Shown here: in pieces, positions 414 to 42,553 of the stretch
How positions within the stretch are numbered: position 1 is the stretch's first letter
How the letters are laid out: the number at the start of each line of letters is the position of its first letter
Source of the DNA: Tropicimonas isoalkanivorans
Lineage (GTDB): Bacteria > Pseudomonadota > Alphaproteobacteria > Rhodobacterales > Rhodobacteraceae
Length of the DNA stretch: 64,000 nt
Direction of reading: 5' to 3'
NCBI RefSeq assembly: GCF_900112335.1
Contig: NZ_FOLG01000005.1
Location: 1-64,000, forward strand
The notes under the pieces: model-generated
Told to the model about the DNA's origin: nothing
Seen by the model: the letters and a program-made list of their open reading frames with translations, nothing else
Database searches by the model: none
Program-made: the position numbers and the translations under genes

Positions 414-1688
414 TCACGACTTCTCACCTTGGATAGATGGAAAGAGGTTCTGCGAAAGGCCGAGCTTATGAGCTTCTAATTCATTAACTTTTCGTAGTTG
501 CGTTGCCTGTATTTCATCGAGCACCGAGAGGCACGAAGCAATTCGCTTCTGTTCGTCCGGTTTAGGAAAGACCAACTCAAGGTCTTCTAACTCGTCAGTG
601 TTCAACCTGCCGGTTCCGTGGCCAGCGATATCAACCATGATTAGCAAACGCTGCTTATTCGCTTGCAACAGGTAGGCCAAGAAAAGTCTGTGTACTTCAG
701 CGTTTGGAAGGAGAGCTTTGACATCTTGATTGAAACTCATTTCGCGGCGCAATATGCATATAGGTACATCGCTGCGCAGGGTCATCCCACGCGTCAGCAT
801 CAGTACCGTGCCGGCGGGGACTAACTTAGCGCCGCCTTCTACAGCCTCTTGAGTGATGTGATCTTCGGTATCCGCCAAATACATGCGCTTCATGTCCTTG
901 GCGGAAACCCATGGAATCGATCCGTTCCAGAGTGAGGGATTCGATTTTGAGGGTGTCCCTCCAGAACGAAACCGGACCAACTTTCCCAGTCTACTCGGCC
1001 TCCAATCTCCAGCATCCCGAAATTCCGGGTGCCGAAGTGTAGGTAGAGACTCACCAGGAGCGGGGAAAAGAACAGTCATTAGTGCTTGTTTGTAGCGCTG
1101 CAGTGTTTCGAGTTTTGAGCGCTCTGCCGAAAGCAGTTCATCAAGAGAATCAAGACAATCGACGATCCTCTGTTGCTCACTTGCCTTGGGCGTAGGGACT
1201 GGCATCTTCATAAAGTCATCGTTGGAGATGGCCATGCGGTCATGCCGTGCACCGCTATTAGAAACGCGCCGTAGATACTCGTGCCAGTTGGACGCCTGGA
1301 AGTAGTGAGCGAAATAGTCGTTATTTTCACTCCTAAAGCGAAACACCGTATAAAGGGGCGATATGACGCCCCTTCCAATATGATTTTTGGAAATGGGCCC
1401 TACTGGCGCTGTGGCAGAAACACGCGGATTATAGACGTAGTCACCTTTCTCTACGACGAAGTAATTATCCGTTTTGACTGCGATCACTTTGTCGAAGAAA
1501 TCCTTTTGGTCGACAACGCCATGCTCGGCGGAATTGGTTAGAGCCCGCAACTCGGCTCCGTCAGAGTTCCTCGTTGTAACGCGCTTCGCAAGCTTGCCAA
1601 GGGCCGGGCATTCCCAAGGTGGTTCACTAGCGAACTCCGGGAAGCGGAGCTTCGGCAAGGCGCGCACGGGCTTATTTGCTGTCATCAC
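414..1688 (-). CDS. hsdS: Type I restriction-modification specificity subunit HsdS
   Basis: Specificity (S) subunit, which chooses the bipartite DNA target for the type I complex. The 424 residues, a normal length, show the classical two-fold build. There is a first target-recognition domain (about 20-170), a conserved helix (EQQRIVDCLDSLDELLSAER, about 175-205), a second domain starting at LPTLRHPEFRDAG, and a second helix (PDEQKRIASCLSVLDEIQ near 385). The start codon overlaps the hsdR stop by four bases (ATGA), so the two are translationally coupled. No hsdM follows or precedes it, which is unusual because S must sit on two M subunits to work. Family assignment is firm; target sequence cannot be read. 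Confidence 0.93.
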   Translation of the reverse strand: MMTANKPVRALPKLRFPEFASEPPWECPALGKLAKRVTTRNSDGAELRALTNSAEHGVVDQKDFFDKVIAVKTDNYFVVEKGDYVYNPRVSATAPVGPISKNHIGRGVISPLYTVFRFRSENNDYFAHYFQASNWHEYLRRVSNSGARHDRMAISNDDFMKMPVPTPKASEQQRIVDCLDSLDELLSAERSKLETLQRYKQALMTVLFPAPGESLPTLRHPEFRDAGDWRPSRLGKLVRFRSGGTPSKSNPSLWNGSIPWVSAKDMKRMYLADTEDHITQEAVEGGAKLVPAGTVLMLTRGMTLRSDVPICILRREMSFNQDVKALLPNAEVHRLFLAYLLQANKQRLLIMVDIAGHGTGRLNTDELEDLELVFPKPDEQKRIASCLSVLDEIQATQLRKVNELEAHKLGLSQNLFPSIQGEKS

Positions 1689-4600
1689 GCGCCACCGTGC
1701 TCATAAGCGTCGAGCCCTGAGATGTCCCGACCGTGAGCCCGCTTATTCAGAACGGGCACAAGGTCGGCCATCAACGCCAATTCACGCTCGCGGCGTTCAC
1801 GCCAGCCCAGATCGAGCGGCGCCATCAGATCGGTAAGTTGTTCGCCGTCAAAGATCATGCGTTGCAGGATCGTGTGGACGAAGTCAGCGAGGGCCTCGGT
1901 TGTCAGGCCGTGGGTTTGAGCCAGGTCTTTAATCTCGTCGCTTTGCTTTGCCGCTTTGAAACGCTCGTAGCCGTCGCGGATTGCGGCTTCGTCAAGGCCT
2001 TCGCCTTCAGTCAGCGACCGGACGTATTCGGTGATTTCCTCTCTCTCATTGAGGAATTTGGCGTCCGAATGGATTAGACCAATGAGCTGCTCGCGGCTGA
2101 TCTTGAGTTTCTTCGGATCCTGCGCCGAGTACTTGGCGATTAGCTTCATGATGTAATCGTAGTCGATCATGGCTGAGGCAAAGAGGACGAACTCAAAGTC
2201 GAGCTGGTCAACATGGGGGTTGGCAGCCTCGCCATCGCCAACGGGCCTGCCCTGCAGCTCTTTCAGGCGCTGGGCGGTTTCCAGATAAACGCCGCGGAAA
2301 GCACGGAGATCATCTTTGGGTAGGGCCTGCTCAATCTGCTCCCGCTGCTCGTCGGTGAGATCGGTGTACTGATCAAGCTGCGTTTGCAGGCGTTGGACTT
2401 CTTTGAAGCGGTTAATGAATTGGGCCCGAGCTTCGTCACCCATGAGGTTGTTGACCTGGTCGGGCCTGGCCTCCAAGCCGTGCGACTGCATGAACCTGTC
2501 GAGGTCGCCAATAGCCTGTTTGAACTGGTCGATGACAACGGGAGCCTTGTCGACAAGCCAAATCTCGCGAGCCCGGTCTGGCTGTGCCCCGGAAAAGAGG
2601 GTGATCGCGGCGTCAACGTTGTCTTGCTGCTGGCGGAAATCCAGGATGTGCCCGTAGGGCTTTGTTGCGTTGAGAACGCGATTTGTACGGGAGAAGGCCT
2701 GGATCAAGCCGTGGTGCTTGAGATTCTTGTCGACATAGAGCGTGTTGAGGAACTTTGCATCGAAGCCGGTGAGCAGCATGTCTACGACAATGGTGATGTC
2801 GATCTTTTCATCGCCTTTGTGGGGCAGGTCGCGATTGGGGAACTGCTGATCTTTGATGCGCTGCTGGACGTCTTGGTAGTAGAGATCGAACTGGTTGATG
2901 TCGTGGTTCGTATCGTACCGCTTGTTATAGTCGGCGATTATGGCTTTCAGCGCACGCTTTTTGCCCGCGGGGTCGTGCCGATTGTCTTCCCTTTCTTGAG
3001 GAAGATCTTCCTGGATCTGCTGAACGTCCTTGTTGCCCTCCGCTGGCGGCGAGAAGACGGCGGCAATCTTTAACGGGACGAATTGGGAGTCGTCGGCCAG
3101 TCGCTCGGCCTGAAGCTTTGCAAATACATTGTAGTACTCGATGGCATCATTGATCGAGGCAGTCGCTAGAAGAGCGTTGAAGCGCCGGTCTCCCGACGCG
3201 GAGTCATGCTTGTCGAGAATTGCCTGGACCACCGCCTTTTTGGCGAGAGTCTGGCCTGGCTTGAGGGCTGCAGCGTCATTGGGCTTGTAGTAATCGACGT
3301 GGAAGCGCAGAACATTTCGATCCTCGATCGCGTGAGTGATCGTGTAGGCGTGGAGCTCTTTCTGGAAAAGGTCGTTTGTCGTACGAAGGGTGGCAATGTC
3401 TCCCTCGATTTGCTTAACAGTCGCGTTGTCCTCGAAGATCGGGGTGCCAGTAAATCCGAAGAGCTGGGAGTCCGGAAAGAACTCTTTGATAGCCTTGTGG
3501 TTCTCACCGAATTGCGACCGGTGGCATTCGTCGAAAATGAATACCATTCGTTTGCCGCTAAGCTGCTTGAGCCGTTGCTTGAACGTTGTTCGACCCTGGG
3601 CAATTTTCTGTTTGTTGTGCTTGCTGTTCTCGTCGAGCGCGAGTCCAAGCTTTTGAATCGTTGTGACGATGACCTTGTCCGCGTAGTCGTCGGACAGAAG
3701 TCGGCGGACGAGCGCTGCGGTGTTTGTGTTTTCCTCGACGCAGTTCTCTTGGAACCGATTAAACTCCTCACGGGTCTGGCGGTCGAGGTCTTTTCGATCA
3801 ACGACGAAGAGGCATTTATGGATGCTATCGTTGGTCTTCAGGAGCGTCGACGCTTTGAAGGATGTCAGCGTCTTTCCGGAACCGGTCGTGTGCCAGATAT
3901 ACCCATTGCCGCAGTTCTGATCGATGCAATCGACGATCGCTTTTACGGCATAGATTTGGTAGGGTCGCATCATCATAAGCTTCTGCTCGCTCGCGATCAA
4001 AACCATGTACTTGCTGATCATGTGACCGAGCGTGCACTTGGCGAGGAACCGATCAGCGAAATCGTCTAGATGCGTTACTTTTGCGTTGTCGTCATCAGCA
4101 AATTGGTAGATCGGAAGGAACCGCTCGTCGGCATCGAAGGCGAAATGGCGCACATTGTTGTTGGCGAAGTACCAGGTGTCCGAGCGGTTGCTTACGATGA
4201 AAAGCTGGACGAAGCAGAGGAGCGTTTTGGTGTATCCGTTACCTGGGTCGTTCTTGTACTCGACGATTTGCTCCATTGCCCGCCGAGGGCTGATCCCAAG
4301 CGTCTTTAGCTCGATCTGCACAACAGGTACGCCATTAATCAGGAGCATCACATCGTAGCGATGATGGCTATAATCAGTATTTATCCGGAGCTGATTGACC
4401 ACCTCAAAGGTGTTTTTGCACCAGTCCTTGATGTTGACGAGGGTGTAATTGAGTGGGGTGCCGTCGTCTCGGATAAAAGCTTCCCGGTTTCTTAGGGACC
4501 GGGCGGCTTCGTAGACATCCGGGGTAACGATCTCGTCGAGAAGCCGTTGGAACTCGCCGTCGGTGAGTTTGACCCGATTGAGTGCTTCGAATTTCTCCCT

Positions 4601-4717
4601 GAAGTTTGCTTCAAGCGCAGCTCGATCACGGATGTCAGTGCAATACTCGTATTTGAGGTCTTGCAGCTTCGCGAGAAGGGCCTCTTCAAGATCGCGTTCA
4701 GGTTTGTTCATCCCCAT
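1685..4717 (-). CDS. hsdR: Type I restriction endonuclease subunit HsdR
   Basis: ATP-dependent translocase/nuclease subunit of a type I system. Visible parts: an N-terminal PD-(D/E)xK nuclease with YDVMLLINGVPVVQIELKT (Asp and ELK, about residues 120-145); Walker A in WHTTGSGKTLTSF (about 280); DECH box in FIFDECHRSQFG (about 400); motif III-like FGFTGTP; and motif VI-like QAFSRTNRV near 700. The 1010-residue length is normal and the frame is intact. It begins inside the last bases of a 47-residue ORF and ends in a four-base overlap with hsdS. With no methyltransferase in view, the nuclease should be toxic unless hsdM lies elsewhere or the complex is inactive. Confidence 0.95.
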   Translation of the reverse strand: MGMNKPERDLEEALLAKLQDLKYEYCTDIRDRAALEANFREKFEALNRVKLTDGEFQRLLDEIVTPDVYEAARSLRNREAFIRDDGTPLNYTLVNIKDWCKNTFEVVNQLRINTDYSHHRYDVMLLINGVPVVQIELKTLGISPRRAMEQIVEYKNDPGNGYTKTLLCFVQLFIVSNRSDTWYFANNNVRHFAFDADERFLPIYQFADDDNAKVTHLDDFADRFLAKCTLGHMISKYMVLIASEQKLMMMRPYQIYAVKAIVDCIDQNCGNGYIWHTTGSGKTLTSFKASTLLKTNDSIHKCLFVVDRKDLDRQTREEFNRFQENCVEENTNTAALVRRLLSDDYADKVIVTTIQKLGLALDENSKHNKQKIAQGRTTFKQRLKQLSGKRMVFIFDECHRSQFGENHKAIKEFFPDSQLFGFTGTPIFEDNATVKQIEGDIATLRTTNDLFQKELHAYTITHAIEDRNVLRFHVDYYKPNDAAALKPGQTLAKKAVVQAILDKHDSASGDRRFNALLATASINDAIEYYNVFAKLQAERLADDSQFVPLKIAAVFSPPAEGNKDVQQIQEDLPQEREDNRHDPAGKKRALKAIIADYNKRYDTNHDINQFDLYYQDVQQRIKDQQFPNRDLPHKGDEKIDITIVVDMLLTGFDAKFLNTLYVDKNLKHHGLIQAFSRTNRVLNATKPYGHILDFRQQQDNVDAAITLFSGAQPDRAREIWLVDKAPVVIDQFKQAIGDLDRFMQSHGLEARPDQVNNLMGDEARAQFINRFKEVQRLQTQLDQYTDLTDEQREQIEQALPKDDLRAFRGVYLETAQRLKELQGRPVGDGEAANPHVDQLDFEFVLFASAMIDYDYIMKLIAKYSAQDPKKLKISREQLIGLIHSDAKFLNEREEITEYVRSLTEGEGLDEAAIRDGYERFKAAKQSDEIKDLAQTHGLTTEALADFVHTILQRMIFDGEQLTDLMAPLDLGWRERRERELALMADLVPVLNKRAHGRDISGLDAYEHGGA

Positions 4718-11783: not shown

Positions 11784-12349
11784 CTCCGTCGATGATGTGT
11801 GGCTGTATGGTTGGCGATTGTCCTCTAGCCTCGTGTGTCATAGCCGGTCTTGGTCGCGCCAGCCGTCATTCACGTCCGAGCCCCCGGATTAGCCCGTGCT
11901 TTCGACGGCTCCAAACGGGTCCGATCCGTCGCCCGGGCGGCGCAACGCGCGTCACAAACGGCGCGACAAACCACCGGTTTTGGGGGGATATTAATGGCAT
12001 GATCGGGAGGGAGGCCGATGCGACGCCCCCGGCGCCCGATCCCCTCCCCGTGCTCGGGTCCTTCGCGGCCGGGCTCGCTATGCGGTGGGCGTTTGCCCGG
12101 AAGTTCTCTAGCGACAGGGATTTTATTTGGGTCCGCACCCAGGGTCCGCACTTTGGGTCCGCGGGTCCGCACCATTCGGCATTGCGCCCTGTTCAGCGGC
12201 TGAGATGTCGAGCGAGACCGGGAACTCGGCGCCCGGTCCTGCATCAATACGTGTCGAGAAGGTCTTCGGAGCGCGGCTGTCCTCGTGATTGCCGCGCTCC
12301 GGTGCGTCTGGGGGATGGTCATGAACAACTGGCGGGAAGGAACACCGGC
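11784..12349. other. Non-coding stretch before the ParB-methyltransferase gene
   Basis: No convincing gene. The forward frame of the methyltransferase stays open leftward to 11792, but that extension has shadow-like composition and no ribosome site. The stretch holds four GGGTCCGC repeats and GC-rich sequence that could carry the promoter of the late genes. Confidence 0.5.
12129..12170. repeat. Four direct copies of GGGTCCGC
   Basis: GGGTCCGC occurs at 12129, 12142, 12155 and 12163, that is with spacings of 13, 13 and 8 bases. Possible protein-binding array (for example terminase or regulator) or simple slippage. Confidence 0.5.
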
Positions 12350-13717
12350 TTGCAGATCGAGATGATGGCGACGGAGCGGCTCGTTCCCTATGCACGCAAT
12401 GCCCGCACGCATCCCGAGTGGCAGATCGCCCAGATCTGTGCCTCCATCGCCGAGTTCGGGTTCACGAACCCAATTCTCGCGGCCGGAAATGGCGAGATCA
12501 TCGCCGGTCACGGACGTCTTCTGGCCGCGCAGCGGATGGAACTGTCCGAGGTCCCGGTCATCGTGCTGGACCATCTGTCGGACGCGCAGCGCCGGGCGCT
12601 GATCATCGCCGACAACAAGATCGCGGAAAACGCGGGCTGGGACGAGGATCTGCTGCGCCGCGAACTGGCCGCGCTGCAGAAGGAGTCCTTCGATCTCGAT
12701 CTCATGGGCTTCTCGGATGCCGAACTGGAGGAGCTTCTGGCCGGTGCGCCGATCGAGGACGAGGACGGTGCATCGGTTTTGCCTGGCGATCCCGACTTCC
12801 TGCCGGAACCGCCCCGGACACCGGTCTCGGTGCGGGGCAACATCTGGCTGCTCGGCGATCATCGTCTGATGTGCGGCGACAGCACGAAACGCGGAGATCT
12901 CGAGGCGCTCTGCCCGGACGGGCCGGTCGACGCCTGCTGGACCGATCCGCCCTACAACGTGAACTACGAGGGCACGGCCGGGTCGATCCGGAACGACAAC
13001 ATGGGCGACACGGAGTTCCGGCGGTTCCTGACGGATGCCTTCTGCTGCGCCTTCGCGGTGATGAAGAAGGGCGGGCCGATCTATGTCGCGCATGCGGACA
13101 CCGAAGGGTTCAACTTCCGAGGCGCGTTCCGGGATGCCGGGTTCAAGCTCTCCGGTTGCCTGGTCTGGGTGAAGCCCTCTCTGGTGCTGGGGCGCTCGGA
13201 CTACCAGTGGCGGCACGAGCCGATCCTATACGGGTGGAAGCCGGGCGCGGCGCATAAATGGTTCGGGGGCCGCGCGAAGACCACGGTGTTCGAGGATGGC
13301 CGCGAGCCGCTGCGCCTCATGGCCGATGGCACCGTGCATGTCGATATCGGCGATCAGGTGGTCACCATCGCGGGCGAGAACCTGACGATGGAGACCCATG
13401 ACGGTTCGGTCCTGCGCTTCGACAAGCCGGCGCGGAATGGCGAGCATCCGACCATGAAGCCGGTCCGGCTGATTTCCGACATGCTCGGCAACAGCACGTC
13501 GCGCGGGCACCGGGTGCTCGATCCCTTCGGCGGATCCGGCTCCACGCTCATCGCCTGTCAGGAATTGGGACGGCGGGCGCGGCTGATGGAACTCGACGAG
13601 AAGTTCTGCGACGTAATCGTCAACCGCTGGCAGCAGTTCACCGGCGGCGAGGCCATTCTCGAGGGTGACGGCCGCAACTTCGAGGACATCGCATTCTCGC
13701 GCGCGAGGGCGGCATGA
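12350..13717 (+). CDS. ParB-domain / DNA methyltransferase fusion protein
   Basis: About 455 residues. The N-terminal 110 are a ParB-like nuclease/CTPase-fold domain (RLVPYARNARTHPEWQIAQI, FTNPIL, EIIAGHGRLLAAQRM). The rest is an N6-adenine/N4-cytosine methyltransferase: motif IV DPPY in CWTDPPYNVNYEGTAG, motif I in LDPFGGSGSTLIACQELGR. The catalytic motif precedes the AdoMet motif, the beta-class order. A TTG start at 12350 with GGAAGG nine bases upstream fits better than the longer frame. Phage methylases of this type protect against host restriction or regulate packaging. Stop overlaps the next start. Confidence 0.88.
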   Translation: MQIEMMATERLVPYARNARTHPEWQIAQICASIAEFGFTNPILAAGNGEIIAGHGRLLAAQRMELSEVPVIVLDHLSDAQRRALIIADNKIAENAGWDEDLLRRELAALQKESFDLDLMGFSDAELEELLAGAPIEDEDGASVLPGDPDFLPEPPRTPVSVRGNIWLLGDHRLMCGDSTKRGDLEALCPDGPVDACWTDPPYNVNYEGTAGSIRNDNMGDTEFRRFLTDAFCCAFAVMKKGGPIYVAHADTEGFNFRGAFRDAGFKLSGCLVWVKPSLVLGRSDYQWRHEPILYGWKPGAAHKWFGGRAKTTVFEDGREPLRLMADGTVHVDIGDQVVTIAGENLTMETHDGSVLRFDKPARNGEHPTMKPVRLISDMLGNSTSRGHRVLDPFGGSGSTLIACQELGRRARLMELDEKFCDVIVNRWQQFTGGEAILEGDGRNFEDIAFSRARAA

Positions 13718-38335: not shown

Positions 38336-38514
38336 AAATTGCCGAGCTTGATGACAATCTGGCCACGGTCTCTGGCTTTGAAGGCGGGGCACATCCTCGG
38401 GTGCACGACCTTAGACGTGCGGGAAGACGCCCCCCTTCAGAACCCTAACTCAAGCCATAGAGCTCATTGATACGCCTAGTTGTTCGGCGCTTTCACCACT
38501 CGTTGCAGGCTGCA

Positions 38515-39174
38515 TCACTTTGAGAACAAAGAAAGTTGTGCCTCGTCGAGATCAGCTTTATCCAGCCAAGGGTGCAGACGCGGCGGATTTGGATGGTTCG
38601 AAAGGTCGAATTTCAGGAAGTCTTCCGGTACGAAATTGTCGACGACACCAGACTTGGCAACCGTCAGTTCGGGAGGGGCATACACATCCTGAACGTTGCT
38701 CATCTTGCCAATGCACGCACTAATGTGATGCATCTGGGGATCGCCAACCTTCCCTACCACGCGAATCAGATAGTCTGCGTTTCGACCGGGAATATGGTCC
38801 CACTCGATAACACCGGGCACATCCTGCAGAGCTTTCTGGAACGATTTGTATGCTGGCATACCCTTTTCCCTGAGCTTCACCATCAAGAAACTGGTGCCAG
38901 CCCCGAAGGGATATCTTGCGGGTTTGATGTCCACACGAAGCCTGATCACCGAACCCAAAACTTCAGCTAGGTCGGGCGCAGAGAGCTTTTTGGCGTTCGG
39001 GAAGCCTGCCGCTTCCAACGCCGACACTATCTGAGCACGCAGCCCCGATCGCTTCTCGAACGAAAGTGTGTCCATCACAGTCTTGATAGCGACGTAGCCC
39101 CAACCGTCAAACGGTTCGTCCTGCGTCCCTTTTCCCTGAATGTGATCGTTCGTCTGAATGTCCGCCCTCGCCAC
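38515..39174 (-). CDS. Unknown protein with possible Lrp-type ligand-binding domain
   Basis: About 219 residues if started at GTG 39174; the frame is open to 39324, where a start would overlap the operator, and an ATG at 39075 is another choice. The stretch SFLMVKLREKGMPAYKSFQK, DVPGVIEWDHIPGRNADYLI, RVVGKVGDP resembles the beta-alpha-beta RAM domain of Lrp/AsnC proteins (PGV......G..DY.l.v). N-terminal DNA-binding helices of that family are not clear. C-terminal tail is Pro/Asp rich. It is divergent from the RHH gene and shares its operator, suggesting a linked function. Confidence 0.55.
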   Translation of the reverse strand: MARADIQTNDHIQGKGTQDEPFDGWGYVAIKTVMDTLSFEKRSGLRAQIVSALEAAGFPNAKKLSAPDLAEVLGSVIRLRVDIKPARYPFGAGTSFLMVKLREKGMPAYKSFQKALQDVPGVIEWDHIPGRNADYLIRVVGKVGDPQMHHISACIGKMSNVQDVYAPPELTVAKSGVVDNFVPEDFLKFDLSNHPNPPRLHPWLDKADLDEAQLSLFSK

Positions 39175-39310
39175 GCACTCGCCCCCAAATGGCCGCAAAC
39201 ACGGGTGAAACTGACTGATTGAGCGGAAATCCGCAAGGTAGGACCTGCCCTTTCCCGGACGTCTTGCCGAAGAAACAGTGTTTTGACTGGACTGGTCGCC
39301 GACGGAGGGT

Positions 39311-39332
39311 GTAAACAACCACAAGTGTTTAC
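39311..39332. promoter_or_regulatory. Operator-like palindrome GTAAACA-N8-TGTTTAC
   Basis: Perfect 7-bp arms GTAAACA (39311-39317) and TGTTTAC (39326-39332) with eight bases between. It lies between the leftward unknown gene and the RHH gene. The same heptamer recurs three more times after the RHH gene. Confidence 0.65.
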
Positions 39333-39374
39333 GCCAAACGCGCTTTAGATCAACCGAACGGAAAGAACAAGGTC

Positions 39375-39611
39375 ATGGTTGCAATCAAAGATCGCAAGAT
39401 CGCATTCCCCCGCCGCCCAAATGAACTGCCGCGCCCCGACCTCCCGCCACAAGCTGAGGCGAACAAACGCCAGAAGGTACTCGCGGTTCGCGTCGATCCG
39501 ACGATAAAGGAGCAGTTCGACAAGTTCGCGGAGACCACGGACAAGTCCAAGCGGGAAATTATGGAAGACATGGTCAAACGATATATCAGGAGCCAAGCGC
39601 CGGCCGCCTAG
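39375..39611 (+). CDS. Ribbon-helix-helix DNA-binding protein
   Basis: 78 residues. After a Pro/Arg-rich N-terminal arm, residues 34-70 read QKVLAVRVDPTIKEQFDKFA, TTDKSKREIMEDMVKRYI, the compact RHH pattern of the Arc/CopG/MetJ class (strand with alternating V-V, then two helices with R-E-I). Such proteins bind palindromic DNA as dimers, often autoregulating. The palindromes before and after it are natural targets. It has its own terminator, so it is probably made independently of the cyclohydrolase cluster. Confidence 0.8.
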   Translation: MVAIKDRKIAFPRRPNELPRPDLPPQAEANKRQKVLAVRVDPTIKEQFDKFAETTDKSKREIMEDMVKRYIRSQAPAA

Positions 39612-39637
39612 TTGGCTAGGCATGACCCCGAAAATTG

Positions 39638-39670
39638 AGCGCTTCGCGGTGTGCCGGGAAGCGCTTTTTT
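39638..39670 (+). terminator. Rho-independent terminator after the RHH gene
   Basis: AGCGCTTC (39638-39645) pairs with GAAGCGCT (39658-39665), loop of twelve bases, followed by TTTTTT. It isolates the RHH gene from the next operator cluster and the cyclohydrolase cluster. Confidence 0.85.
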
Positions 39671-39681
39671 GTTCCCCGTGA

Positions 39682-39735
39682 GTAAACATTCCTGTGTGTG
39701 CACCCGCAAGAGTGTTTACACTCATGTTTGTTTAC
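39682..39735. promoter_or_regulatory. Operator/promoter cluster with three GTAAACA/TGTTTAC copies
   Basis: GTAAACA at 39682, TGTTTAC at 39713 and at 39729; the last two are 16 bases apart. A promoter-like TTTACA (39715-39720) with a 17-base spacer to TACATG (39738-39743) would overlap the operators, so binding by the RHH protein would block RNA polymerase (inference). Confidence 0.6.
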
Positions 39736-39771
39736 GATACATGTAGCATCGACAACGAGGAGACCTGCCGC

Positions 39772-39912
39772 ATGCTCTGCTGCCAAGACATTGCCGCCAC
39801 ACTCGCACTCCAGCATGGCTACTGCGCACACGCGAAGCCCAGAGCGCATCACCATCGCAGCTTCGATGCGACCACATTTGTGATCGTTCCGTTGGAAGCA
39901 TTGAGAGGATAA
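39772..39912 (+). CDS. Small Cys/His-rich ORF ahead of the cyclohydrolase
   Basis: 46 residues starting MLCCQDIAATLALQHGYCAH, with GAGGAG eight to nine bases before the ATG. It holds three cysteines and several histidines (AKPRAHHHRSFD) and ends four bases before the ATG of the cyclohydrolase frame, in the same phase. It could be a small metal-binding partner, a leader peptide, or the decayed front part of a longer protein. Not recognised. Confidence 0.4.
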   Translation: MLCCQDIAATLALQHGYCAHAKPRAHHHRSFDATTFVIVPLEALRG

Positions 39913-39915
39913 GTC

Positions 39916-40491
39916 ATGATCATCAAACTGGGCTAAACCTCACTGACAGCAAAGCAGGGCAGTTTCCGCTTTTGCGGTTGGTATGATGGCCACTCCGAAG
40001 TCTACTCGATCCATCTTGGAGACATTGAGGGCGCGGAAAACGTTCCTGTTCGTGTTCACTCTTCGTGCATCACCGCCCACTATTTCTCATCGACGGAATG
40101 TGACTGCCGTGATCAATTGGAGATCACACAGGACGAAATCGCGAAACGCGGAATAGGCATCATCATTGTTCTCAATCAGCAAGCGAAAGACAATGGAATC
40201 CTAGCCACTCTTCACTACAAATCCGTTGCTGGCGAAGTTTCCTACTCCGCCACCGCCTATCAGATGATGGGCTATCCCGCCGATTCCCGGTCTTATCTGT
40301 CAGCCGCCTTCATCCTGAAAGAACTTGGCGTCAAGAGCGTCGAGCTCCTGTCCAATAGCCATGACAAGCGAAAGCAGCTTCAAGACGCTGGAATAGCGGT
40401 TGTGGACAGAAAAAGCGTGGTGGTCGAAAACCGGCCTGACCTAGTAGCTCACTACAATGGGAAGAGAGACGTCGAAGGACATGATCTCTGA
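39916..40491 (+). pseudogene. GTP cyclohydrolase II-like gene with in-frame stop at codon 7
   Basis: From ATG 39916 the frame reads MIIKLG, then TAA, then TSLTAKQGSFRF and on without interruption to 40491. The body is a divergent GTP cyclohydrolase II (RibA fold). Zinc ligands are intact (HSSC, ten residues, CDC: VHSSCITAHYFSSTECDC). The D-x-R pair of the active site is kept in MGYPADSRSYLS, with LGVKSVELLSNSHDKRKQ behind. The loop RQEGRxIG of true RibA is changed to NQQAKDNGI. Loss of six residues may be harmless if translation restarts, for instance at TTG 40117 only after losing the zinc site, so the stop matters. Function here is probably not riboflavin synthesis. Confidence 0.75.
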
Positions 40492-40501
40492 GTAATCTAT
40501 T

Positions 40502-41065
40502 ATGCTGCATTTTTTCGTTGGACCAAGTGGTTGTGGAAAAACAACCCTGATGCATAGCCTCAGGGACCGTTTTGGCTGGCGGATTGTGCAGACTTACACC
40601 ACGCGGCCAGCTCGCGAAAACGATGACAAAGTCTCCGTGTCACCGGAAGTGTTTGCTCGAATGGCTTTGGACGAGCGAATGTTCACAGTGAAGCACCTGT
40701 TCGGCGAAATGTATGGTGAAGATCGGAGATCGATCCTAGACGCCATTTCGGCAAGATCGTCCGACAGGTGGTGCCTAGACTTAGCTGTGGGCGAGATTGC
40801 TAAATATAGCGCGTACAATACTCTAAAGTTCATACTCCTGCCAGAGTCCCTCGATCAATTGGTGGCGCAACTGGAAGCAGCAGGGAGAAAGGAACGAGTG
40901 GAGGGGGCCAAGGCCGACCTAGAAAAATACACCCAGCTAAGCAATAGCGTTCAGGGAGAAAACGGGTACGTCACGATTTTCAATCGCCACACAAGGCTGA
41001 ACGACAGCTTGGAACTCATCAGGAAGATCTCATCTTCGTTTTTCAATCCGACGGTGGAGGCATAG
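40502..41065 (+). CDS. Guanylate-kinase-like P-loop protein
   Basis: 187 residues. Walker A GPSGCGKTTLMHS at the very N-terminus and YTTRPARENDDKVSVSPEVF are the GMK pattern (TTRp.R..E.dg...f). In the part that grips GMP the usual Glu/Tyr pattern is altered (MFTVKHLFGEMYG, compared with LEwa.vhGn.YG), so the acceptor may not be GMP. C-terminal half is helical (LVAQLEAAGRKERVEGAKAD), a place often used for the lid. It starts ten bases after the cyclohydrolase stop and ends directly against the next ATG; the three are one operon. AT-rich codon use sets it off from the phage. Confidence 0.75.
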   Translation: MLHFFVGPSGCGKTTLMHSLRDRFGWRIVQTYTTRPARENDDKVSVSPEVFARMALDERMFTVKHLFGEMYGEDRRSILDAISARSSDRWCLDLAVGEIAKYSAYNTLKFILLPESLDQLVAQLEAAGRKERVEGAKADLEKYTQLSNSVQGENGYVTIFNRHTRLNDSLELIRKISSSFFNPTVEA

Positions 41066-41932
41066 ATGTCAGCACTCGGTCAACGCGATCTCTTTGCGCT
41101 ACATGGTCGGCAGTTTGTAATTCATCCTTGCGAACCGAACCTTTTTACGCCGCTTGGCTACGATCTTCGGATTGGACATCAGATCATACTGCCAAACCGG
41201 ACAAAGAGTCCGGACGAAGACCTTAACCCTCCGATCCATGTAAACAATGGAGAAAGTGGGAGCTTCGTTTTCCCTCCACAATCCACCAGCATTATCGTGA
41301 CAAAAGAACGGGTTTGGCTCTCTAGGCATCTGATGGGATCAATTCATGCACGCGGATCTCTTGCCCTTCGCGGTCTGTTTATCAACGCCACAACGGTGGA
41401 TCCCAACTGGGATGGAAAAATGTTCATGAGGGTATTTAACAGTAGCCCCAAGGAGGAACGAATTGCCGCCGACGAGGCGTTCTGCACGATGGCATTGTAC
41501 ACACTGCGTAGCCCATCGCTAGAGCCGCCCCAGACTAATCCTTCGAGAGCAATAGACAATCTCAAGGAAATCTACGGCGAGGCAATCGGATCGTCGCTTT
41601 ATAGTCACGCCAACTCAAAAGAGGCGTCGCAAGAACGAGTTCGTGGCGACGAGCTTGTGCATTTGGGAAAATTGCATTCTGCCAAGCCAATGGTATATCG
41701 CCGGGCTTCCGAAACGGCATATTCCATCAAAAGTATGGCACCCGTGCGCACTCGATATGGGAAATTCGGTTTGGCCACGACCACTGCAATCGCCGCTCCT
41801 TATGTTGGCGACTTGCTCCTTGATGGCGGGCTTCTCAGCCTAACCAGCACAGCGCCTCTTTATGTCGGGCTGTCTCTTGCAGTCTTCGGATTGTTTTATA
41901 TGGGGGACTTTTTTGAGTACAGACCCAAGTAA
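41066..41932 (+). CDS. dCTP deaminase/dUTPase-fold protein with C-terminal membrane anchor
   Basis: 288 residues. N-terminal TPLGYDLRIGHQIILPN and the central HARGSLALRGLFINATTVDPNWDGKMFMRVFN (split: HARGSLALRGLFINAT, TVDPNWDGKMFMRVFN) follow the dCTP deaminase layout (DVRLG; GRSSLARLGL; DPGWSG...LEFYN). By eye the catalytic Glu of LEFYN is Arg here and the Ser/Arg of GRSSLAR are changed, so deamination is doubtful. The Asp of the dUTPase motif (VDPNW) remains. Residues 235-285 form two hydrophobic helices (TTTAIAAPYVGDLLL; LYVGLSLAVFGLFYMG). A membrane-bound nucleotide sensor is a fair guess. Confidence 0.75.
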   Translation: MSALGQRDLFALHGRQFVIHPCEPNLFTPLGYDLRIGHQIILPNRTKSPDEDLNPPIHVNNGESGSFVFPPQSTSIIVTKERVWLSRHLMGSIHARGSLALRGLFINATTVDPNWDGKMFMRVFNSSPKEERIAADEAFCTMALYTLRSPSLEPPQTNPSRAIDNLKEIYGEAIGSSLYSHANSKEASQERVRGDELVHLGKLHSAKPMVYRRASETAYSIKSMAPVRTRYGKFGLATTTAIAAPYVGDLLLDGGLLSLTSTAPLYVGLSLAVFGLFYMGDFFEYRPK

Positions 41933-42017
41933 CTGCTCCAATGGGTTTTTTCTGTACTCCAAAGTCTTTCGTCACCCCGAATACCGGTTGCGCGGGTCAA
42001 GACCTAAGGGGGACGAC

Positions 42018-42347
42018 CTAACCTTCTTGGTCAACGAATGACATGACGGTTCTGCTGGAGCGGCGCTCCTGGTTGCGATAGCCGAGATGCAGGCTCTCGG
42101 TCTTGTAGTGGAGCAGCCACGTGTCGAGATCGGCCTGAAGCGCTTTGACCGTCTCTAGAGGGACTCGTGCATCTTCACCCGAAAGAACTCGTCGACGACG
42201 GTGCCGTCGAAACGTTCGACGAAACCGTTCGTCTTTGGCGTTTTCACCTTCGTCCGACGGTGCTCGACGCCGTTTAGGTCGAGATAGCGTTCGTAGGGGT
42301 GACGGTCGGCGCCGCAAAACACGAGTTCATCGAGAGTCAGCGAACAC
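42018..42347 (-). pseudogene. IS481-family transposase remnant with frameshift
   Basis: Two reverse-strand frames together give the C-terminal catalytic end of an IS481 transposase. One reads LDELVFCGADRHPYERYLDL, NGVEHRRTKV and NGFVERFDGTVVDEFFRVKM before a stop; after a one-base shift the other continues ETVKALQADLDTWLLHYKTE and LHLGYRNQERRSSRTVMSF. The N-terminal two thirds are missing. Dead element debris beside tRNA-fMet. Confidence 0.75.
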
Positions 42348-42410
42348 CGCTATGACCGGCAAATGAGAGCACGTCTGGAGAACAGGCGTTTTGGTGAGCA
42401 AGTGGTGAGC

Positions 42411-42454
42411 AAGAAAAAACAGCTTACGAGCGCCTTTGCGGGCGCCGTCGTAAG
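42411..42454 (-). terminator. Terminator of the tRNA-fMet gene
   Basis: On the reverse strand CTTACGACGGCGCC, loop CGCAAA, GGCGCTCGTAAG with one mismatch, then CTGTTTTTTC. It follows the leftward tRNA gene by about 20 bases and is a textbook rho-independent site. Confidence 0.85.
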
Positions 42455-42476
42455 CGTCTGTTTTTCATTGTATTTT

Positions 42477-42553
<77 letters not shown>

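Follow-up and report, generated by a model that had tools for sequence, protein, structure and literature searches.

The locus and its parts

The subject of this study is a 3.4-kb stretch of DNA from Tropicimonas isoalkanivorans, lying within the 64,000-nucleotide piece of contig NZ_FOLG01000005.1 that was analysed (positions 1 to 64,000, here called the window), and in particular three adjacent genes in it, P1, P2 and P3, whose products resemble respectively GTP cyclohydrolase II, guanylate kinase and proteins of the DCD fold, and which together may form a possibly undescribed nucleotide-signalling defence module. From left to right the order is a minus-strand gene at 38515–39324, the gene of an RHH regulator, an array of TGTTTAC boxes, and then P1, P2 and P3 (Table 1). 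An earlier note on this DNA had spoken of an AT-richer island between the end of a prophage and insertion sequence (IS)-type genes, with the three genes packed head to tail; the island was placed correctly and its GC content is indeed lower (0.51–0.57 over 38–42 kb vs 0.64–0.69 over 12–38 kb), while the close packing, with 10 bases between P1 and P2 and 0 bases between P2 and P3, is borne out by the reading frames at 39937–40491, 40502–41065 and 41066–41932.

Table 1 Features of the island, with positions in the window and the basis of each assignment
Feature	Position	Strand	Basis
Uncharacterised divergent gene, 269 aa	38515..39324	-	Open reading frame (ORF) listing; weak matches only
Palindromic operator box before the RHH gene, exact GTAAACA-N8-TGTTTAC	39309..39332		Word and shuffle scan
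RHH (CopG/Arc-like) regulator, 78 aa	39375..39611	+	Pfam RHH_1, 1.1e-4, 22.5 bits (cut-off 20.5)
Three overlapping imperfect box copies in 16-base steps, upstream of P1	39682..39735		Box scan
P1, GTP cyclohydrolase II-like	39916..40491	+	ATG 39916, TAA 39934-39936, then open to stop 40489-40491
P2, guanylate kinase-like P-loop protein, 187 aa	40502..41065	+	ORF listing and profile matches
P3, DCD-fold protein without catalytic Glu, with hydrophobic C-terminal segment, 288 aa	41066..41932	+	Profile, alignment, hydropathy, model

That an RHH regulator and shared operators stand ahead of the trio, as had also been proposed, is upheld both by the RHH_1 score, which exceeds its cut-off, and by the boxes, which exceed what shuffled sequence gives. 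The word TGTTTAC occurs six times in the 64 kb (shuffles: mean 1.30, largest 5), five of these falling at 39311–39735, and boxes of the form GTAAACA-N8-TGTTTAC with 0–3 mismatches lie at 39311, 39682, 39698 and 39714 (shuffles: mean 0.38, largest 2). Considered as a possible toxin–antitoxin pairing, the arrangement does have an RHH gene with shared operators, yet 0.3 kb and a separate operator array precede P1. A 46-codon frame at 39772–39912, preceded by GAGGAG and in the same frame as P1, ends four bases before the ATG of P1, and might encode a leader peptide or be due to chance. A scan with the sigma-70 consensus gave no useful promoter, and a search of Rfam over 38–43 kb gave only a tRNA at a meaningful score. 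The divergent gene makes up the left part of the island; its best matches are weak (AsnC_trans_reg, 0.007; phrog_26596, 0.0017), no counterpart was found beside the second copy of the operon described below, and it is at most a possible member of the system.

The three proteins and their active sites

P1 matches the Pfam family GTP_cyclohydro2 over the whole domain (1.4e-33), and shares with RibA (GTP cyclohydrolase II) the three zinc-binding cysteines together with an Asp and an Arg, aligned with what we take to be D126 and R128 of E. coli RibA, all of which are kept in both known copies. It differs from RibA in its score against TIGR00505 (100.7 bits, below the cut-off of 205.85), in its placing in a tree, where P1 and its counterpart from Donghicola tyrosinivorans form one branch apart from 11 RibA-type proteins with support of 100/100, and in the loss of the QEGRGIG...NKMRAY motif: the stretch NQEGRGIG(L/H)ANKMRAY, present in all 11 of the RibA-type proteins compared, reads NQQAKDNGILATLHYK in P1 and DHQAKDNGIMATLAEN in the Donghicola copy, the replacement common to the two being QAKDNGI(L/M)ATL. 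GTP cyclohydrolase II converts GTP to a pyrimidine nucleotide 5'-phosphate, and Arg128 and the three Cys are among the residues named, Arg128 being tied to pyrophosphate release (PMC10366380).

P2 has the overall length of a guanylate kinase or PhnN protein, and like these retains the P-loop (GPSGCGKTT) and the TTRxxR arginines, again in both copies, although its score against TIGR03263 (3.6e-10, 39.8 bits) is below the cut-off of 160.45. It departs from the host's own Gmk at DYHF, at LEHAHVFGNFYGS and nearby, the two copies being alike only in part; changed in both, and setting P2 apart from guanylate kinase and PhnN, are the Tyr of DYHF, the Glu of LEHAHVFG and the Ser after YG, which are presumably GMP-binding residues. 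As a RibA-type protein (C33) and a Gmk (C15) are also encoded elsewhere by the host, P1 and P2 must be regarded as extra rather than housekeeping proteins, and since both are altered on the side that would contact the base, a substrate other than GTP or GMP is suggested.

P3 matches the Pfam DCD domain (7.8e-15, 55.7 bits against a cut-off of 27), while against NCBIfam TIGR02274 (Dcd) its 69.9 bits fall below the cut-off of 92.8. Both by Pfam and by fold it resembles archaeal dUTPase P45 and dCTP deaminase, from which it differs in three respects: the catalytic Glu of the (I/V)T(L/I)E motif is Arg, both here and in Donghicola; the GRSSLAR motif of the Dcd rows has become ARGSLALR (it is changed in long-type relatives too, whereas R-SSLAR is kept in the aligned dUTPases); and the chain is longer by about 140 residues, with a hydrophobic helix at the end. 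Of the TTVDPNWDG motif, P3 retains the Asp. The hydropathy of the C-terminal part is modest, with Kyte–Doolittle peaks of 1.32 and 1.61, and 17 of 18 relatives peak higher. An AlphaFold2 model built on 11 rows has a mean predicted local distance difference test score (pLDDT) of 63.4 and a predicted template modelling score of 0.50, with a core at roughly residues 71–150 predicted at pLDDT 79–89.

The earlier note had held that all three proteins differ from their housekeeping relatives, and for the active sites this is correct: the cyclohydrolase II loop has QAKDN in place of QEGRG in both copies, the kinase's grip on GMP is altered at guanine-side residues by comparison with the host's Gmk, also in both copies, and the deaminase-like protein lacks its catalytic Glu, having Arg in each trio. 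Other parts of that description stand only in half. The family assignment of the cyclohydrolase-like gene holds, while its intactness does not, an in-frame TAA discussed below having been overlooked; P3 does have a hydrophobic C-terminal segment, but its peaks of 1.32 and 1.61 are not those of a strong membrane anchor; and structure prediction, which had been put forward as a check, returned a DCD core together with a fold match in which dUTPases come first and a C-terminal helix of low confidence.

A second copy of the trio, and its rarity

When 84,980 species genomes were scanned with an alignment, seven relatives of P3 were recovered, one of which, in Donghicola tyrosinivorans, is accompanied by the whole trio in the same order; since the scan demanded an exact match to short degenerate patterns, it must miss much. 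Identities between the two trios are 52% for P1 (4e-67), 40% for P2 (7e-46) and 50% over residues 1–197 for P3 (3e-61). In Donghicola the operon lies beside a relaxase-like gene, P1 has no internal stop, P2 and P3 overlap, and no RHH gene was seen directly before the trio. That the same operon should occur there in the same order means that the trio is not a chance assembly. A joint search of the three proteins for conserved neighbourhoods had been suggested beforehand; a second operon has now been found, and neither of the outcomes named as fatal to novelty (homologues occurring mainly as isolated housekeeping genes, or a known biosynthetic operon) turned up in the searches made.

The trio is very rare. 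The Donghicola copy was retrieved only by the three-row alignment scan, single-protein scans of genome and viral contigs returning only the same provirus, and eight scans of IMG/VR, one of them using a relative as query, gave either that provirus or nothing, with no other viral copy. Among evenly sampled whole genomes, in sets that overlap, P1-type proteins were found in just one of 394 genomes of the family at E 1e-28 and in one of 388 genomes of relatives at E 1e-36, in each case the genome of origin; ten others of the 394 gave 101–109 bits in frames of 362–472 aa. The long-type P3 profile (see below) likewise recovered only its own genome among 398 of the phylum, and P3 was found in none of eight congeners. 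In plasmids and phages P1 finds RibA-type proteins, at 37% identity in the best place, and P2 finds only weak matches in plasmids (26–43% identity, one of them a 55-residue stretch). At the DNA level, searches of plasmids with 38400–42480 and of phages with 12000–36500 gave no match.

A family of putative membrane DCD proteins around P3

P3 belongs to a wider set of proteins, for which 19 loci were assembled: the window, plasmids of Sulfitobacter, Peribacillus and Priestia (reached from P3), eight plasmids reached from the Sulfitobacter protein, and the seven genomes from the scan. They divide into a long type (10 loci) and a short type (9 plasmid loci); the sample leaves out L041 and other plasmid rows annotated dcd (H3–H5, H10 and others), and L025 reads as an ordinary Dcd. 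The catalytic Glu is missing in 19 of 19, being replaced by Arg in the two trio copies and by Ala, Ser or Thr in the other 17, while in Dcd-like control loci read on both strands it is present in 21 of 22. The exception is a chromosomal locus, L007 (G075:C99), in which Gly stands in place of the Glu and the protein has a hydrophobic tail of 70 residues (1.59); it is perhaps a member of the family, was kept among the controls and has no neighbour match. All 19 family members have a C-terminal Kyte–Doolittle peak of at least 1.45, with two separate peaks in eight of the 10 long-type proteins, and P3 (1.61) is among the weaker. P3 itself has the features that characterise the family, namely a DCD domain, no Glu, a hydrophobic C-terminus and a nucleotide gene as neighbour.

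A nucleotide gene in fact stands at every one of the 10 long-type loci. Five have dut (L024 and L040 by annotation, L044–L046 by Pfam), three have a PADLOC dCTPase gene (L046–L048, 2.8e-79 to 3.6e-108; L046 thus has both), one has ThyX (L043), and two have P1 and P2. Beside the short type there are annotated UDG genes at 5/9 loci, an NTP-pyrophosphohydrolase or MazG gene at 4/9 and thymidylate synthase at 1/9, and HMUDK occurs at one (Pfam, 1e-104) and, by tblastn, at a second. Within 1.5 kb, 18 of the 19 family loci match a query gene as against none of the 22 Dcd-like controls, a comparison to be read with two reservations: the query genes were taken from the very loci under test, so that some matches are self-matches, and the background differs, the controls being chromosomal alphaproteobacterial loci and the family coming from plasmids, mobile loci and other phyla. 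The sole miss within this distance is L034, where UDG and MazG lie farther off.

Defence genes also appear. The earlier note had asked whether the homologues occur in defence islands, and some of those of P3 do lie beside defence genes: besides the three loci with dCTPase, a PDC-S25 SIR2 gene (3e-159) lies directly upstream at L024, a CARF6-type gene (8e-82) two genes upstream at L043, and Shedu is annotated near L033, of the short type. At L043:2906-8813, from a UBP2 metagenome-assembled genome, an HD-like gene, an ORC-CDC6-like ATPase, the CARF6-type protein, ThyX and the membrane DCD protein follow in one row. On rhizobial and other plasmids (L032–L039) an XRE regulator, an ImmA/IrrE peptidase, a C1 peptidase, a hypothetical gene, UDG and MazG recur near the short-type gene, several of these loci lying beside acpS; at L032 and L035–L039 a small, mostly helical protein of 137–195 aa is encoded directly upstream of the membrane DCD gene. 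In the three cases tested (L032, L036, L037) this small protein has no Pfam match, and the idea that the small gene upstream of the plasmid relatives might be a homologue of P2 was rejected as there is no similarity.

The acquired-DNA setting

The window is syntenic with five congeners from the 3' end of a tRNA-Arg gene (44937/44938) rightward, and the stretches fetched from them match nothing to the left of the tRNA; hence the DNA next to tRNA-Arg that carries the trio, prophage and restriction genes is acquired. No direct repeat of at least 15 bases, such as might mark an attachment site, was found between 38.2–45.2 kb and the rest of the window, which begins at the contig end. By PHROGs the prophage is ordinary for its kind, with terminase, portal, tape measure, endolysin and tail proteins and two DNA methyltransferases, one a C-5 cytosine enzyme at the phage end (35401–36480) and the other a ParB-like/methyltransferase fusion at its start (11792–13717). 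Type I restriction genes, hsdS and hsdR, lie at 414–4717, at the left end of the window.

Relation to known defence systems

The combination had been thought novel, and the trio matches no system in PADLOC 2.0.0, giving only weak P-loop matches (five for P2, the best being mad8 at 5.3e-4 and 17.6 bits); nor did searches of the open-licence literature of PubMed Central (PMC) bring up a paper that describes this trio or membrane DCD proteins as a family. In the DefensePredictor report, aGPT-Pplase, MazG, MazG-C and dUTPase domains are listed as predicted but unvalidated in defence (PMC13092281). AvcID and other dCTP-deaminase defences resemble the present case in targeting nucleotides, and PADLOC dCTPase genes lie beside the P3 relatives L046, L047 and L048; the window trio, by contrast, has no cytidine deaminase domain and employs other enzymes. 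The closest analogy in working would be with Panoptes (OptSE) and with CBASS systems using Cap15, which likewise appear to combine one or more nucleotide-making genes with a nucleotide-binding domain that is rich in beta structure and attached to a membrane segment. OptE and Cap15 are effectors that carry a nucleotide-binding beta-barrel on two transmembrane segments; a nucleotide holds one of them off and switches the other on (PMC12657218). Here too there are differences, as P1, P2 and P3 include no mCpol or CD-NTase (by Pfam and PADLOC) and the fold is DCD rather than S-2TM-beta.

Proposed working and alternative explanations

Starting from what can be read directly, that is the operon, its second copy, the altered active sites and the P3 family with its contexts, the explanation we favour is that the trio is a three-gene nucleotide-based conflict module on a tRNA-associated island, to which we would assign a probability of about 0.42. 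Its chemistry, ligand, trigger, membrane effect and defensive role might be as follows. P1 would act on a purine nucleotide, opening or otherwise altering it, and so produce a nucleotide monophosphate of pyrimidine type, which P2 would phosphorylate; P3, held at the membrane by its anchor, would bind the product of P1 and P2 in the pyrimidine-nucleotide pocket of its DCD fold. Phage infection would shift the level of this nucleotide, either as a rise (as in CBASS) or as a loss (as in Panoptes), whereupon P3 would disturb the inner membrane, and the RHH protein would repress the operon at the TGTTTAC boxes. Relatives could follow the same logic with other partners: a dCTP deaminase would make dUTP, dUTPase, MazG and thymidylate synthase would remove or use it, and UDG would act on its trace in DNA. 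Doubtful, but worth stating, is the bolder proposal that this is a new form of nucleotide-signal immunity, in which an enzyme derived from cyclohydrolase II works with a kinase to produce a non-canonical pyrimidine nucleotide, and this in turn gates a catalytically altered DCD sensor anchored in the membrane. The system would be one branch of a wider undescribed family of membrane DCD sensors responding to disturbances of pyrimidine nucleotides (dUTP, modified dUTP, ring-opened purines) that partner enzymes make or remove.

A number of observations weigh against a conflict module. The trio is known from two genomes only, with one copy in each; the neighbour comparison relies on queries drawn from the family itself; and in PADLOC 2.0.0 no model fits P1 or P3, neither these nor the RHH protein finding a match at E 1. 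As far as sequence can say, the altered contacts in P1 and P2 could simply amount to loss of activity. A plain dUTP signal is disfavoured by a study of AvcID, where deletion of Ung and overexpression of Dut left protection unchanged (PMC10511110). In the model of P3 the C-terminus is one long helix of low confidence (residues 235–280, pLDDT 41–75) with no clear hairpin, and Foldseek places a Thermococcus dUTPase with dUMP (8y1w, E 2e-9) and dUTPase P45 ahead of the dCTP deaminases; with dUTPases as its nearest solved structures, P3 could be a hydrolase. The ATG of P1 is followed after six codons by TAA as the seventh, so this copy may be silent and the module perhaps disabled in the strain. 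The next listed start, TTG at 40117, comes after the Cys motif, and the first motifs would be lost with it; similarity to the Donghicola copy starts upstream of the TAA, so that the profile match reads through it, and the frame downstream retains the active-site residues. The gene may be broken in this strain or may use an unusual start, and the IMG/VR copy offers no independent check of the stop, being identical over 3.4 kb.

The stop speaks for the possibility that the island is a decayed remnant without present function in this strain, as do the IS-type genes on its right flank; P2 and P3 are nevertheless open and keep the residues shared with Donghicola, and this explanation, improbable in any case, would concern the present copy and not the system. 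The resemblance of P3 to dUTPases bears on a different alternative, and the one to be taken most seriously, unlikely as it is: that a mobile element uses the cluster for nucleotide house-cleaning or pool tuning, with P3 as an active hydrolase of the dUTPase kind bound to the membrane. The best fold matches, which also rank first by sequence, are archaeal P45-type dUTPases (8y1w with dUMP, 9ln3, 9ln0), and in the alignment these have Met where Dcd has its Glu; as the nearest archaeal dUTPase itself lacks the Glu, its absence from P3 fits a dUTPase as well as a sensor and does not by itself mean inactivity. The retained Asp and the dUTPase gene beside five of 10 long-type relatives may be counted on the same side, but such a neighbouring gene would be redundant if P3-type proteins were themselves dUTPases, the GRSSLAR motif, which the aligned dUTPases keep as R-SSLAR, is changed, and P1 and P2 are left unexplained.

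A biosynthetic operon for a modified nucleotide, whether destined for DNA, for a cofactor or for secretion as a metabolite, in which P3 would serve at the membrane as an enzyme or carrier, would account for three enzyme-like genes in one operon, and short-type relatives do have base-modification genes (HMUDK, ThyA and MazG) in their vicinity. It seems decidedly unlikely, however, for no transporter, ligase or modification gene accompanies either known trio, P3 is without the deaminase Glu, and the defence genes beside its relatives would go unexplained. Least probable of all is a prophage moron aiding the phage itself by counter-defence or nucleotide supply: the trio does lie just past the prophage tail, methyltransferase and esterase genes, and IMG/VR includes it in the provirus, but the Donghicola copy is beside a relaxase-like gene with no phage genes noted in its 16.6 kb, the eight IMG/VR scans gave no other viral copy, and no P3-type plasmid locus lies in an annotated prophage.

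Significance

If the trio is indeed a nucleotide-based conflict module, the DCD fold, a pyrimidine-triphosphate pocket, would be seen to serve as a sensor at the membrane, with partner enzymes producing or destroying what it binds, and a ring-opened or otherwise non-canonical nucleotide would be a new kind of signal in nucleotide-based immunity. The clustering of genes for dUTPase, dCTP deaminase, thymidylate synthase, UDG and MazG in mobile defence loci would then also have an explanation that can be tested.

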